25,324 nt of DNA, from the IMG/VR virus record IMGVR_UViG_3300037584_000937, positions 1 through 25,324 of that record; one strand, written 5' to 3'. The notes beneath the pieces are model-generated. The model worked only from the letters and a program-made list of their open reading frames with translations. It searched no databases and had not been told where the DNA came from. The stretch comes from a virus. Both the position numbers and the translations under genes were made by a program. Every line of letters begins with the position of its first letter. Positions within the stretch are counted from its first letter, which is position 1. Positions 2,635 through 10,876 of this stretch are shown here, one piece after another.

Positions 2635-3315
2635 ATGAAAAAAAATTACTCACAAATATCTTTAGACAAGATTAAAAACGGTCACACCATCTACACCAAA
2701 ACGATCAAGGTGGTGGAGTTCTATCCTTACAAAGCTCTTAAGCCTGTTATCAATAAGAAGTTAGGTAAGAAGGTGAGCAAGGGTATGCACAAGGATAGAC
2801 CTATATTCACATTAACGTTAGAGGAGAGGGCTACATGCCCTCGTACTTGTGGGCATTGGGATGATTGTTATGGCAACAACATGCCCTTTGCTCACAGGAT
2901 ATCTCATGGCAACGGGCTAGTTCACAAGCTATACACAGACCTCACAGAGATACAGAAGAAGCATGAGAAGTTTCTTGTACGACTTCATGTGCTTGGAGAT
3001 TTCTATTCAGTAGATTATGTGCAGTTCTGGGAGAGATGTCTTGCTAAGTTTCCAGGCCTTGCCATCTGGGGATATACACATTGGCACCCAGGCACAGACA
3101 TAGGAGATGAAATCAAGAGAATACGCACAGCACAATGGGATAGATTCTCAGTACGATTTTCAGATTACACCAGAGATATACTATCAGCTAACTCAGAAGA
3201 GATAGCAGAGAAAGGCATAGTGTGTCCAGAACAGACAGGCAAAGCCAAGAGCTGTGCCGATTGTGGTCTGTGTTGGTCAATGAAAAAACAATCAGTTATA
3301 TTTAAAACACATTGA
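2635..3315 (+). CDS. Gp88-family Cys-rich phage protein
   Basis: This 226-aa product resembles the 'gene product 88' family named after mycobacteriophage L5 gp88. Hallmarks visible here are C68-PRT-C72 ... C78-YG, the core RLHVLGDFYSVDYVQFW (residues 116-132), and a C-terminal C197 ... C207-A-D-C210-G-L-C213 cluster. The CxxCxxC triplet and upstream cysteines suggest an Fe-S cluster or zinc, which I infer rather than know; the family function is unestablished. The start ATG lacks a ribosome binding site and lies at the predicted transcription start. Its TGA stop is part of the -35 box of the next promoter, so the unit is cleanly separated from what follows. Confidence 0.8.
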   Translation: MKKNYSQISLDKIKNGHTIYTKTIKVVEFYPYKALKPVINKKLGKKVSKGMHKDRPIFTLTLEERATCPRTCGHWDDCYGNNMPFAHRISHGNGLVHKLYTDLTEIQKKHEKFLVRLHVLGDFYSVDYVQFWERCLAKFPGLAIWGYTHWHPGTDIGDEIKRIRTAQWDRFSVRFSDYTRDILSANSEEIAEKGIVCPEQTGKAKSCADCGLCWSMKKQSVIFKTH

Positions 3316-3340
3316 CACAGACTATCAATGATGTTATAAT
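3312..3340 (+). promoter_or_regulatory. Perfect consensus promoter before a non-coding region
   Basis: TTGACA (3312-3317), a 17-bp spacer and TATAAT (3335-3340) give an ideal sigma70 promoter. Transcription should start near 3347. Unlike the other plus-strand promoters here, no long reading frame follows; instead about 235 nt of non-coding, hairpin-rich sequence precede the gene at 3585. Confidence 0.9.
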
Positions 3341-3346
3341 ACAGCA

Positions 3347-3560
3347 TTCTTTAGGTGGGAATGGCAATACTAGTCAGCCTATAAGCCTAGAGATAGAGAT
3401 GACCAGTACAAGCCTTATGGAGTTGATCTAGCATAGTACTATGCAGAAAAGACTAAGAAACTAAACGTAAAGTTTTAGGTTTTATGGAGAGTGGCTTCTT
3501 CACATCTCGCTAGAGTGTGTACCGTATCTCTAAAATAGCACTGCGGTACACGCTCGCTTA
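3347..3560 (+). ncRNA. Candidate structured RNA or long structured leader
   Basis: All ATG frames in this stretch stop within about 10 codons. Complementary segments form five successive stems. Stem 1 pairs GGC 3363-3365 with GCC 3412-3414 and TACTAGTC 3368-3375 with GACCAGTA 3401-3408 (one A/C mismatch). Stem 2 is the perfect palindrome GCATAGTACTATGC (3431-3444). Stem 3 is CTAAAC 3461-3466 against GTTTTAG 3472-3478. Stem 4 is GAGAGTG 3487-3493 with CACATCTC 3501-3508 (one bulged base). Stem 5 is 12 bp, 3513-3524 with 3544-3555, including GTGTACCG/CGGTACAC. The 3' boundary is set at the last stem; no long T-run follows, so read-through into the next gene is likely. It may be a riboregulator, a leader or a separate small RNA. 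Confidence 0.6.
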
Positions 3561-3584
3561 TTAACAACAACAAAGGAGGCAGAA

Positions 3585-3914
3585 ATGCAACGACTAAAAC
3601 GACAAACCTTTTCAGATGAACTACATAAACTTGTAGGATCTAAAATCTTTTCAGCAAAGTTTACTAAGAAAGATGGCTCAGATAGAGTTATGAACTGTAT
3701 GCTAGGTGTAAAGAAACATCTGAGAGGTGGAGATAGAACGACAAGTAAAGAAGAGTTTATGATTGTATTTGATACAAATAAGAAACAGTATCGTAATATA
3801 AATCTACAGACTCTTGATTGGATTAAGTTCAATGGTCAGCTATATACCGTTGAGCTACAGTACAAAGGCAATCAACTAAAGCTGACACCAGCAGAGAACT
3901 TAACAGATGAGTGA
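3585..3914 (+). CDS. SH3-like (WYL_2/DUF2693-type) small protein
   Basis: This 109-aa protein starts at an ATG with a strong AAAGGAGG (3572-3579). The segment FTKKDGSDRVMNCMLGVKKHL (residues 26-46) matches, from memory, the pattern of the DUF2693/WYL_2 family of small Sm/SH3-like barrels common in phages: a KKDGS turn, a RVMN strand, then a G-V-K/KH element. The end is a predicted beta-rich segment. Such proteins are thought to bind nucleic acid, but the function here is unknown. The gene lies downstream of the structured RNA region and probably on the same transcript. Its stop overlaps the next start. Confidence 0.7.
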   Translation: MQRLKRQTFSDELHKLVGSKIFSAKFTKKDGSDRVMNCMLGVKKHLRGGDRTTSKEEFMIVFDTNKKQYRNINLQTLDWIKFNGQLYTVELQYKGNQLKLTPAENLTDE

Positions 3915-4083: not shown

Positions 4084-4288
4084 ACTAGACTGGACAAAGC
4101 ATGACACAGATGATACAATATTTGTTTGTTGGAATACAGAAGATGTTAGGCAACTAAGACCAGACCTAACAGACGCAGACTGCAGAAAAGTTTTACATGC
4201 AGTCAAAGACAAACACGATGCTACTCTGGGTATATCATGGGACGTAATAGAAAGTATATCTTACGACATGTACCCGATACAAGTTTGA
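4064..4288 (+). CDS. Small phage protein of the RPDLTDxxxRxVL...HDAxxGIxWDV type
   Basis: This 74-aa product has GAGGAGG seven bases before its ATG. The pattern VRQLRPDLTDADCRKVL followed by KHDATLGISWDVIESI is one I recognise from small proteins scattered through phages and plasmids, always without a known function. It is predicted to be helical and soluble. It is the last gene of the early block; hairpins follow from 4341. Confidence 0.75.
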   Translation: MTKPYNELDWTKHDTDDTIFVCWNTEDVRQLRPDLTDADCRKVLHAVKDKHDATLGISWDVIESISYDMYPIQV

Positions 4289-4340
4289 TATGAACAAATG
4301 GTAAAACCCAAAGCTAGCTAGAGAGGTAGTGTTCGTATCA

Positions 4341-4374
4341 GGGAGCAGGTTGGTCGTTCCTGCTCCCACTTTAT
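4341..4374 (+). terminator. Strong hairpin, probable terminator of the early block
   Basis: GGGAGCAGG (4341-4349) pairs perfectly with CCTGCTCCC (4359-4367) around a 9-nt loop, followed by ACTTTAT. The 9-bp, G/C-rich stem stands out in this A/T-rich genome. The T-run is short (three T), so termination may be partial. It lies 52 bp after the last early gene. Confidence 0.6.
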
Positions 4375-4444
4375 GGGGGTGCAGGTCTGAGTACTCAAAA
4401 GCCGTTTAAACATTGCGGCCTACGGACACCCCCACCCACTTTAT
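4365..4444 (+). repeat. 10-bp direct repeat flanking the second hairpin
   Basis: CCCACTTTAT occurs at 4365-4374 and again at 4435-4444, precisely bounding the 60-bp hairpin element. The arrangement resembles either duplicated terminator tails or a target-site duplication around an inserted mini-element. Confidence 0.6.
4374..4434 (+). other. Second hairpin element with terminal inverted repeats
   Basis: TGGGGGTG (4374-4381) is the exact complement of CACCCCCA (4427-4434), closing a 45-nt interior. The interior contains the palindromes GAGTACTC and GTTTAAAC and a small GCCG/CGGC stem. It is followed by CCCACTTTAT, which repeats the sequence that follows the first hairpin. It could be a second terminator, a structured RNA, or a miniature mobile element; it is not a tRNA, because anticodon and T arms are missing. 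Confidence 0.45.
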
Positions 4445-4446
4445 CA

Positions 4447-4475
4447 TTGACAGAATAAAAAAAATATGTTATAGG
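4447..4475 (+). promoter_or_regulatory. Promoter of the replication operon
   Basis: TTGACA (4447-4452), a 17-bp spacer and TATAGG (4470-4475, 4/6 match) place the transcription start at about 4482, the A of the primase ATG. No Shine-Dalgarno sequence precedes this ATG. It is the last convincing plus-strand promoter seen before the long replication gene string. Confidence 0.65.
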
Positions 4476-8782: not shown

Positions 8783-9634
8783 ATGACAAACAATGAAATA
8801 AGTAACATAGATAATTTATCTAATGAGCAGATAATGTCTATGATAGGACAAGAGAAGTCGTCCACTGGTAACTTCTTACCGAAGTTATCCATAAATAGAT
8901 TTCCAGAAAATGATGATGGTGCAGAAGTTCCCGTTGGTTCTTATGGAGTATATGTTCCAGAGCTGGATAGCCTAGCCTATGGTAAGCCTGTTACATTCAG
9001 ACCATTCATCAATGCGTATCAGTACATGAAGTATGACGCAGATAAAAACGAATACAGCAATCGTAGTATTATATTTAAATCCTGGAAGGATGAGGCTATA
9101 GATGCTAAAGGTGGTGTTCGTTGTGGAAAGATACCAGCAAAAGAACTTGCTAATCTTTCTGAAGAAGAAAGAACCAAGCAAAAGGCTGTTAAGTGTTATA
9201 GATTAATTTATGGTCTAGTATCATTTGATGGTGTATTACCAGGTGGGGCAGAAGCACATGTTACTAATCTACCTGTACTTTGGAAAGTGACTGGCAGTAA
9301 TTTTAAACCTGTTGGTGAAGCAATCGAAAGCCTTAGACGAAGAGGTAAGGTAATGTTTAATCATACACTTACGCTAAAAACAAAAAAGAAAAAGGCTGGA
9401 AGTAATGTGTTTTATGTTTCCGACATTACTGTAGATAAAGACGAAGTCTCTTTCACAGACGCAGAGAAAGAAACACTTCTTAGTTTTCAAGAAACTATTA
9501 ACACAGAGAACGAGGAGATAGTAGAGCTATGGAGACAGGCTAAAAAGGCGGAGCCTATTAGTGTAAAAGCTACTAAGGCAGAAGTCGTAGACGCAGAGTT
9601 CGAGGATGATCCTATCGAAGTTCTATCGTCATGA
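8783..9634 (+). CDS. Probable single-stranded DNA-binding protein
   Basis: The 283-aa protein has an excellent AAGGAGG ribosome binding site (8772-8778), implying strong expression. A central beta-rich region (about residues 45-220) is followed by an acidic C-terminal tail (VVDAEFEDDPIEVLSS). An abundant beta-barrel protein with an acidic tail, encoded between polymerase and nucleases, is what T7 gp2.5-type ssDNA-binding proteins look like. I see no decisive sequence motif, so the assignment rests on position, tail and expression signal. C118 and C142 are the only cysteines visible in the core, arguing against a zinc protein. It overlaps the following nuclease by 4 bp. Confidence 0.55.
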   Translation: MTNNEISNIDNLSNEQIMSMIGQEKSSTGNFLPKLSINRFPENDDGAEVPVGSYGVYVPELDSLAYGKPVTFRPFINAYQYMKYDADKNEYSNRSIIFKSWKDEAIDAKGGVRCGKIPAKELANLSEEERTKQKAVKCYRLIYGLVSFDGVLPGGAEAHVTNLPVLWKVTGSNFKPVGEAIESLRRRGKVMFNHTLTLKTKKKKAGSNVFYVSDITVDKDEVSFTDAEKETLLSFQETINTENEEIVELWRQAKKAEPISVKATKAEVVDAEFEDDPIEVLSS

Positions 9635-10527
9635 GCCAAGACATCCTAGAAAAAGTTAGGGTGTTTTTGGAAGCTGCATCAAAAGATGCGGTAGAGGTAT
9701 CCGATGATTTGATTGATCAGTTTGGTGAGGCTTGTAAGGAATCATTCAGAAAGCAGTTCACTGACCAAAGAAAAAAAGAGTTTGGTCTTAGAGCATCAAA
9801 CATCGGACGACCTTTATGCCAACTACAGATGGAGAAGAAAGGTGTAAAGGGAGAAGGCCAACCATATAATGCAAAGATGCGAAACATGTTTGGTGATTTA
9901 GTAGAACAGCTTGCAATCATAGTCATGAAAGCTGCAGGTATAGAAATACAAGCAGAACAAAAGAAAATAAAATATGGAGTTACTAAAGATGTTGAAATTA
10001 ATGGAGCACTTGATGTGGAGATTAGTGATAAAGTGTGGGATATTAAAAGTGCATCGCCTTGGTCGTTTACTAATAAGTTTGGTGACAATGGCGGTTTCGT
10101 TACAGTAGCCACAGATGATATATTTGGGTATACAACACAAGGGTATGTATACGCAGAGGGAGCTAACAAACCATTTGGAGGATGGATAGTTATAAATAAA
10201 TCTACAGGTGAGTGGGCAGTGACAGAGACTCCACTTGCAGACGATGAATATAAAGATAGAGCATTGGCAACAGCTAAAGAAAATGTCATAGCCTTAAACA
10301 AAAATAAAAAATTTAAAAGGTGCTACACAGATGAAGAAGAATACTTTAGAAAACAAAAGACAGGCAATAGAGTATTGAATAGCACATGCGGTTTCTGCCC
10401 TTACAAGTATCCTTGTTGGGGAGAAGACTTGCAACTGTTACCACAACAGCAGTCGCAAGGTAAAAACCCTAAATGGGTTTGGTACACTAAAGTTGAGAAT
10501 CCTAGGGTAGAGGACGATGGCTACTAG
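9631..10527 (+). CDS. Cas4/RecB-like PD-(D/E)XK exonuclease with Fe-S cysteines
   Basis: This 298-aa protein has the nuclease core E92 (in LVEQLA), G-A-L-D128 and D137-I-K139, the three signature elements of RecB-type PD-(D/E)XK nucleases. Four cysteines frame the domain: C63 in IGRPLC and C253-x2-C256-x5-C262 near the C-terminus, the pattern that holds a 4Fe-4S cluster in Cas4 and AddB. The likely role is processing DNA ends during replication and recombination or degrading host DNA. No CRISPR genes or arrays are nearby, so this is not a CRISPR system. It overlaps the upstream gene by 4 bp and the next nuclease by 11 bp. Confidence 0.85.
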   Translation: MSQDILEKVRVFLEAASKDAVEVSDDLIDQFGEACKESFRKQFTDQRKKEFGLRASNIGRPLCQLQMEKKGVKGEGQPYNAKMRNMFGDLVEQLAIIVMKAAGIEIQAEQKKIKYGVTKDVEINGALDVEISDKVWDIKSASPWSFTNKFGDNGGFVTVATDDIFGYTTQGYVYAEGANKPFGGWIVINKSTGEWAVTETPLADDEYKDRALATAKENVIALNKNKKFKRCYTDEEEYFRKQKTGNRVLNSTCGFCPYKYPCWGEDLQLLPQQQSQGKNPKWVWYTKVENPRVEDDGY

Positions 10528-10876
10528 TGTACGCAGTAGAAAAGCCAAGGGGCGAAGGCTACAAAACTGGGTTAGGGACGCACTACTTGGTGCGTTCCCT
10601 AGCTTAAAAAAAGATGAAGACATCTGGTGCGCTATCATGGGTGAGTCTGGTGTTGATGTTAAACTATCTAAAGATGCCCAAAAACTTTTTCCATTCTCTA
10701 TTGAATGTAAAAATAAAGAAACATGGAAAGGATTGTATGATGCTTACGATCAATCTGTTTCTAATGCAGACTTAGAGCCTGCTATTGTTCTAAAGATGAA
10801 TGGCAGAAAACCACTTATCGTACTTGACTGTGTGTCATTTTTAAATATAATAAAAGAAAAAACTAAAGGAGAATAA
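10517..10876 (+). CDS. Small Holliday-junction-resolvase-like nuclease
   Basis: The 119-aa protein starts SRKAKGRRLQNWVRDALL, the basic leading helix typical of archaeal-Hjc-like and phage VSR/PDDEXK enzymes. Catalytic residues follow as G-V-D47 and E63-C-K65. It would cut branched DNA or debranch replication intermediates before packaging; T7 uses endonuclease I for this. The start codon lies inside the end of the Cas4-like gene, an 11-bp overlap, so both nucleases are probably made together. An alternative is a nicking or homing-type nuclease, but size and motif spacing favour a resolvase. Confidence 0.75.
   Translation: MATSVRSRKAKGRRLQNWVRDALLGAFPSLKKDEDIWCAIMGESGVDVKLSKDAQKLFPFSIECKNKETWKGLYDAYDQSVSNADLEPAIVLKMNGRKPLIVLDCVSFLNIIKEKTKGE

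Follow-up and report, generated by a model that had tools for sequence, protein, structure and literature searches.

The window analysed here is a 25,324-base fragment of an IMG/VR virus, and the region of interest lies between a GP88-like gene (2635-3315, with Pfam matches to GP88 and DUF7227) and a WYL_2 gene (3585-3914, plus strand), with primase, helicase and polymerase genes further downstream. The window's DNA polymerase shares 63% identity with that of Pelagibacter phage HTVC033P and about 41% with that of Puniceispirillum phage HMO-2011, identities that point to a marine phage of the HMO-2011 type that probably infects SAR11, with HTVC033P probably its closest isolated relative. The WYL_2 gene encodes a 109-aa protein with a Sm-like SH3 beta-barrel by Pfam (PF10902); its predicted fold (mean pLDDT 75.5, 17 sequences) has no significant structural relative (best E 0.07), the weak matches including the WYL proteins BrxR and DriD. 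In the two contigs of L023/L025 and L024/L027, WYL_2 matches as two separate pieces with about 10 bases between them, an apparent frameshift or sequencing error. The window also encodes a RusA-like Holliday junction resolvase (10517-10876) and a Cas4-domain exonuclease (9631-10527; both by PHROGs), which are possible actors in cassette recombination.

The intergenic region opens with a sigma-70-type promoter on the plus strand, with TTGACA at 3312-3317, a 17-nt spacer, TATAAT at 3335-3340 and an extended -10 TG, its -35 box overlapping the stop codon of the GP88-like gene. The perfect promoter described in the earlier note is thus exact at 3312-3340, and the window holds two perfect promoters of this kind (0.11 expected). 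The second, TTGACA-16-TATAAT at 512-539, precedes small genes that start at 529 and 674 and is accompanied by a divergent promoter-like site at 498-470. Downstream of the promoter at 3312, about 240 nt hold no real reading frame, the longest ATG frame read in 3341-3584 having 10 codons, as had been claimed. This leader folds at -71.9 kcal/mol, compared with -55.0 kcal/mol for shuffles (z -3.64; better than 200/200 shuffles), and the proposed folding check comes out in favor of a structured RNA.

Reading along the plus strand, the order is promoter, A-type hairpin (slot 1, H1), C-type hairpin (slot 2, H2), GCTA, M-type hairpin, tail, Shine-Dalgarno sequence (SD) and ATG. Slot 1 (3345-3395) reads CATT-[A-type hairpin, 3349-3392]-ATA and would form the transcript 5' end, with transcription predicted to start at about 3346-3348; in the A-type hairpin a conserved internal loop, GUGGGAA / AUAAG, separates two covarying stems. 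Slot 2 (3396-3508) is a C-type hairpin of about 113 nt with the closing stem GAGAUG...CAUCUC, the inner stem AAGCC...GGCUU and variable apical hairpins, represented in the window by the 14-nt palindrome that the earlier note had recognized (GCATAGTACTATGC, 3431-3444). That note had also allowed CTC 3506-3508 to pair with GAG 3513-3515; the covariation-supported fold instead pairs it with GAG 3396-3398, closing the C-type hairpin. After the linker GCTA (3509-3512) comes the M-type hairpin (3513-3555), whose 12-bp stem (3513-3524/3544-3555, one G-U) is present as described; its occurrence is limited to L001, L002 and additional copies of these contigs, the nearest relatives, where it is identical and so carries no covariation signal. 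The constant tail GCTTATTAACAACAACAAAGGAGGCAGAA (3556-3584) includes the Shine-Dalgarno sequence AGGAGG at 3574-3579.

ARAGORN finds no tRNA or tmRNA in the window, as the earlier note had judged by eye, nor in eight array-bearing loci. The suggested Rfam search (4,227 models) returns no family at gathering score in the window and none near arrays at E<=5 in the four sources searched.

For comparison, relatives were collected by a WYL_2 search (29 loci) and by a search with the GP88-like gene (the best 80 of 117 matches). Parsing of about 40 arrays yields the grammar AATATT-[H1]-ATA-[H2]-GCTAAAATATT-[H1]-ATA-[H2]-GCT, in which each unit consists of two abutting hairpins between constant linkers (AATATT-H1-ATA-H2-GCTAAAA), with a TTTAT linker joining some hairpins and a closing pair that is C-G or T-A in H1 and G-C in H2. 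At least 20 hairpin families fill the two slots, and several have covarying stems together with invariant loop or junction bases. The families combine freely enough that an E-type H1 may be followed by an H2 of type A, C, L, N or O and a K-type is found with C or G, while the A-type occupies either slot; the A- and C-type models match at most once per contig in whole-contig searches. A grammar scan of 36 loci (280 kb) finds 33 distinct gene-sense units and 1 antisense, against 0.2 per strand in shuffles, the pattern having been written after the arrays were seen, with shuffles and the antisense strand as its controls. An earlier linker-pattern scan was discarded as it gave mostly chance matches in coding DNA.

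No unit of the parsed arrays is flagged as lying within a coding frame. Where an array precedes WYL_2, its first unit begins exactly 22 or 29 nt past the upstream stop; since the promoter falls between that stop and the first unit, the predicted transcript begins at the first hairpin. At other loci the first unit often lies 0-1 nt past a stop codon. Module patterns and a further protein search place cassettes at these other intergenic sites of related phages as well, where they directly follow a stop codon and precede a small or convergent gene.

We observe that the content of the leader changes faster than its surroundings. Among the relatives listed, those at least 76% identical in the GP88-like gene mostly carry a promoter and leader at the matching place, with radically different leader content, and the distant relatives listed (about 50% identity or less in that gene) have no recognizable array. 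Even where the flanking gene is 98-99.8% identical, phages do not share the same array: units differ by deletion, insertion or swapping, exactly at the linkers. Leaders at the WYL_2 locus fall into 18 distinct non-empty arrangements (our count from parsed arrays). In the pair L059 (contig of L015) and L061 (contig of L018), the upstream gene is 99.8% identical and the first 200 nt of WYL_2 are 100% identical, while the leaders match at 51%; read from L015 to L018, the difference is explained if one unit was lost exactly between AGATATTCT repeats and one hairpin was gained. The arrays of L064 and L066 differ solely in the last H2, those of L065 and L066 in a K-C unit that only one of the two carries and in an exchanged last H2, and those of L003 and L015 in the first unit and one single base. 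In L058 promoter and array are both absent and the tail and SD are kept; deletion is the simpler reading of this empty site. As the contigs are metagenome assemblies, some arrangements could be chimeras; misjoining at the 6-9-base linkers is nevertheless improbable, these being far too short and several arrangements recurring in separate samples. Because the leaders of near-identical phages differ, one conserved small RNA is rejected, and the conservation among homologues that the earlier note had looked to holds for the module families and fails for the leader as a whole.

The stems carry the signature of selection at the RNA level. A-type hairpins show double changes in 8/13 pairs (score 0.52 versus 0.06-0.23 for slid controls), counted on a plain MAFFT alignment and scored with a structure that we drew from that alignment. 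C-type hairpins show them in 9/18 pairs (0.34 versus at most 0.11 in controls) and the S element, described below, in 7/23 (0.36 versus at most 0.12), both on alignments fitted to models partly built from those sequences, so that the exact scores lean towards the structures. The closing stems of the B-, E- and K-types covary in hand-aligned sequences. Many of the compensatory changes yield G-U pairs, a sign that selection acts on the RNA, and the compensatory changes called for in the earlier note are thereby found in the A- and C-type stems. Overall, the region very probably exemplifies a modular array of RNA, put together like a mosaic from structured-RNA cassettes that can be exchanged.

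Several features that catch the eye were set aside. B-type hairpins carry three different palindromes at one position, which is striking by eye; as kissing loops for dimers, palindromic loops are not enriched (11 8-nt palindromes versus 10.2 in shuffles). The 16S-like stretch of B-type hairpins (GAAUAAGCAC) was judged a chance match. The resemblance of CGCTTATTAACA to boxA was dropped, since its CGCT comes from the hairpin and linker before it and L058 keeps the TTAACAAC tail without CGCT.

Past the WYL_2 operon lies the S element (4283-4370, plus strand), a conserved RNA of about 88 nt with a long covarying stem and a terminator-like hairpin. It is found once per contig and has its own promoter in one lineage (e.g., L058), for which reason it may be a separate small RNA. 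It is followed by a T-type cassette (GGGGGTGCAGG...CACCCCC, 4372-4435, plus strand) that is present, replaced or absent in relatives and belongs to a second kind of cassette array (window 4372-4435; L058:4155 onward; L064:4567 onward), in which TTATG and ACCCAC linkers flank GGGGG...CCCCC hairpins, again mosaic between relatives. A promoter-like TTGACA-17-TATAGG (4447-4475) stands directly past the S/T elements, before the primase gene.

Three arrays searched against isolated phages gave no DNA match, the A, C and S models match neither HTVC033P nor HMO-2011, and the B-type core pattern has no match in bacterial genomes. HTVC033P has a structured-looking intergenic stretch of its own (L049:4217-4400), with a GACTTG...CAAGTC stem and no match to these models.

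Known systems resemble the arrays in part. HK022 put is a cis antitermination leader RNA, a single element of two adjacent hairpins just after early promoters, and the array likewise places two adjacent hairpins directly after a phage promoter; put, however, is one conserved element, whereas the arrays draw on many families in two slots and also stand at operon ends. REP/BIME and Rickettsia palindromic elements share with the arrays mobile-looking hairpins and quick turnover, and the arrays differ by strict strand bias, slot grammar and RNA-type covariation. GOLLD and ROOL, which are associated with phages, are structured non-coding RNAs too. These ornate RNAs are single conserved architectures that form homo-oligomers (PMC12286853), whereas the arrays are modular and without an Rfam match. 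The cyanophage cis-regulatory RNAs manA, wcaG and PhotoRC-II are structured and tied to phage genes in marine sequences (PMC2864571), but are single motifs rather than combinatorial arrays, the latter again lacking an Rfam match. The RNA arrays of type III toxin-antitoxin systems (ToxI/CptI/TenpI) also line up structured units in tandem, with a promoter before them and the gene for a small barrel-fold protein after them. ToxI, however, repeats a single RNA several times (PMC8860590), whereas neighboring units here come from different hairpin families, and the downstream gene matches only WYL_2 in Pfam and no toxin of the ToxN/CptN/TenpN kind, so that this assignment was rejected. A CRISPR array was likewise rejected, because recurring structured cassettes and short linkers stand here where a CRISPR array would alternate constant repeats and unique spacers. 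The words noncoding, non-coding, intergenic, promoter and small RNA are all absent from the HMO-2011 group paper (PMC9038755), and a literature search, with most subscription journals outside it, found no account of RNA leaders built from interchangeable two-hairpin units that outpace their flanking genes.

With respect to function, we tentatively propose, at somewhat short of even confidence, that the array acts in cis at transcript ends, setting stability or processing. With transcription starting at the first unit, the array would be the folded 5' end of the WYL_2 operon mRNA, and at promoterless loci a folded 3' UTR directly past the stop codon; it would serve as a structural cap and insulator that sets how the adjoining mRNA decays or is processed, and cleavage would probably fall in the A/U-rich single-stranded linkers. 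Recombination between the short repeats of the linkers would account for the fast turnover, to which selection against a nuclease or RNA-binding protein of the host may contribute. That the array can be lost together with its promoter (L058) counts against this proposal. A dedicated ligand- or protein-sensing leader, riboswitch-like or in WYL_2 autoregulation, would account for an array directly upstream of WYL_2, and WYL/Sm-like barrel proteins could bind nucleic acid; we consider it highly improbable, given that no aptamer is constant, cassettes recur beside other genes, the WYL_2 model lacks a significant structural match and the SD is not sequestered. The mean unpaired fraction of the SD is 0.48 in real leaders and 0.45 with shuffled arrays, so that control of WYL_2 by hiding or freeing the ribosome-binding site was rejected. 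A cis role in stability or processing fits better than a riboswitch because of the transcript-end position, sense-only occurrence, interchangeability, dispensability and absence of an SD effect. Of the suggestion that the region is a phage small RNA or a WYL_2 leader, what stands is a promoter-led structured RNA upstream of WYL_2; a single conserved small RNA or dedicated WYL_2 leader does not, as the cassettes are interchangeable and occur at other genes too.

The arrays might instead be precursors of small trans-acting RNAs, decoys or regulators, with the linkers cut to release each two-hairpin unit as a stable RNA and cassette turnover driven by an arms race with host factors. Such RNAs, which we hold to be rather unlikely, are kept in play by the conserved complex loops and fast turnover; the stems covary around these loops, the flanks stay constant, A/U-rich single-stranded linkers separate stable units and matching units occupy 3' UTR-like positions unconnected with WYL_2. 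Against this, the WYL_2-locus array is contiguous with the ribosome-binding site, with no terminator ahead of the gene. Selfish hairpin elements or recombination by-products, spreading among phages without benefit, would explain the empty site in L058 and the exact insertions and deletions at short repeats, and the RusA-like resolvase could act on cruciforms; the strand bias of 33 to 1, which also led us to reject a mobile DNA hairpin element in both orientations, the lack of any parsed unit flagged in a coding frame and a G-U-tolerant covariation that DNA-level elements would not need make this quite unlikely. Cis antitermination or RNA-polymerase-modifying elements like HK022 put are very unlikely: two abutting hairpins do begin at the predicted transcript 5' end and the terminator-like S element closes the operon, but arrays also end operons facing convergent genes, where readthrough would be antisense, and many unrelated hairpin families interchange where put is single. 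We thus return to a modular array with a cis role at transcript ends as the best explanation as a whole, held at nearly even confidence. Against it, generic hairpins would suffice to protect mRNA ends, so that the invariant complex loops suggest a specific partner.

A further and unlikely possibility is a combinatorial phage RNA system, in which phages would draw on a common pool of structured cassettes, exchange them at the fixed linkers and release them as small RNAs to engage or evade RNA-binding factors of the host; if true, this would parallel, at the RNA level, a gene-cassette array that evolves rapidly. The fast-changing modular viral RNA looks like a new kind, and its slot grammar is a ready search pattern for further cases. 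Should the arrays prove to govern mRNA decay or to serve as decoys, they would make it directly testable how phages exploit or evade the RNA machinery of a host, in the setting of one of Earth's most abundant bacteria.
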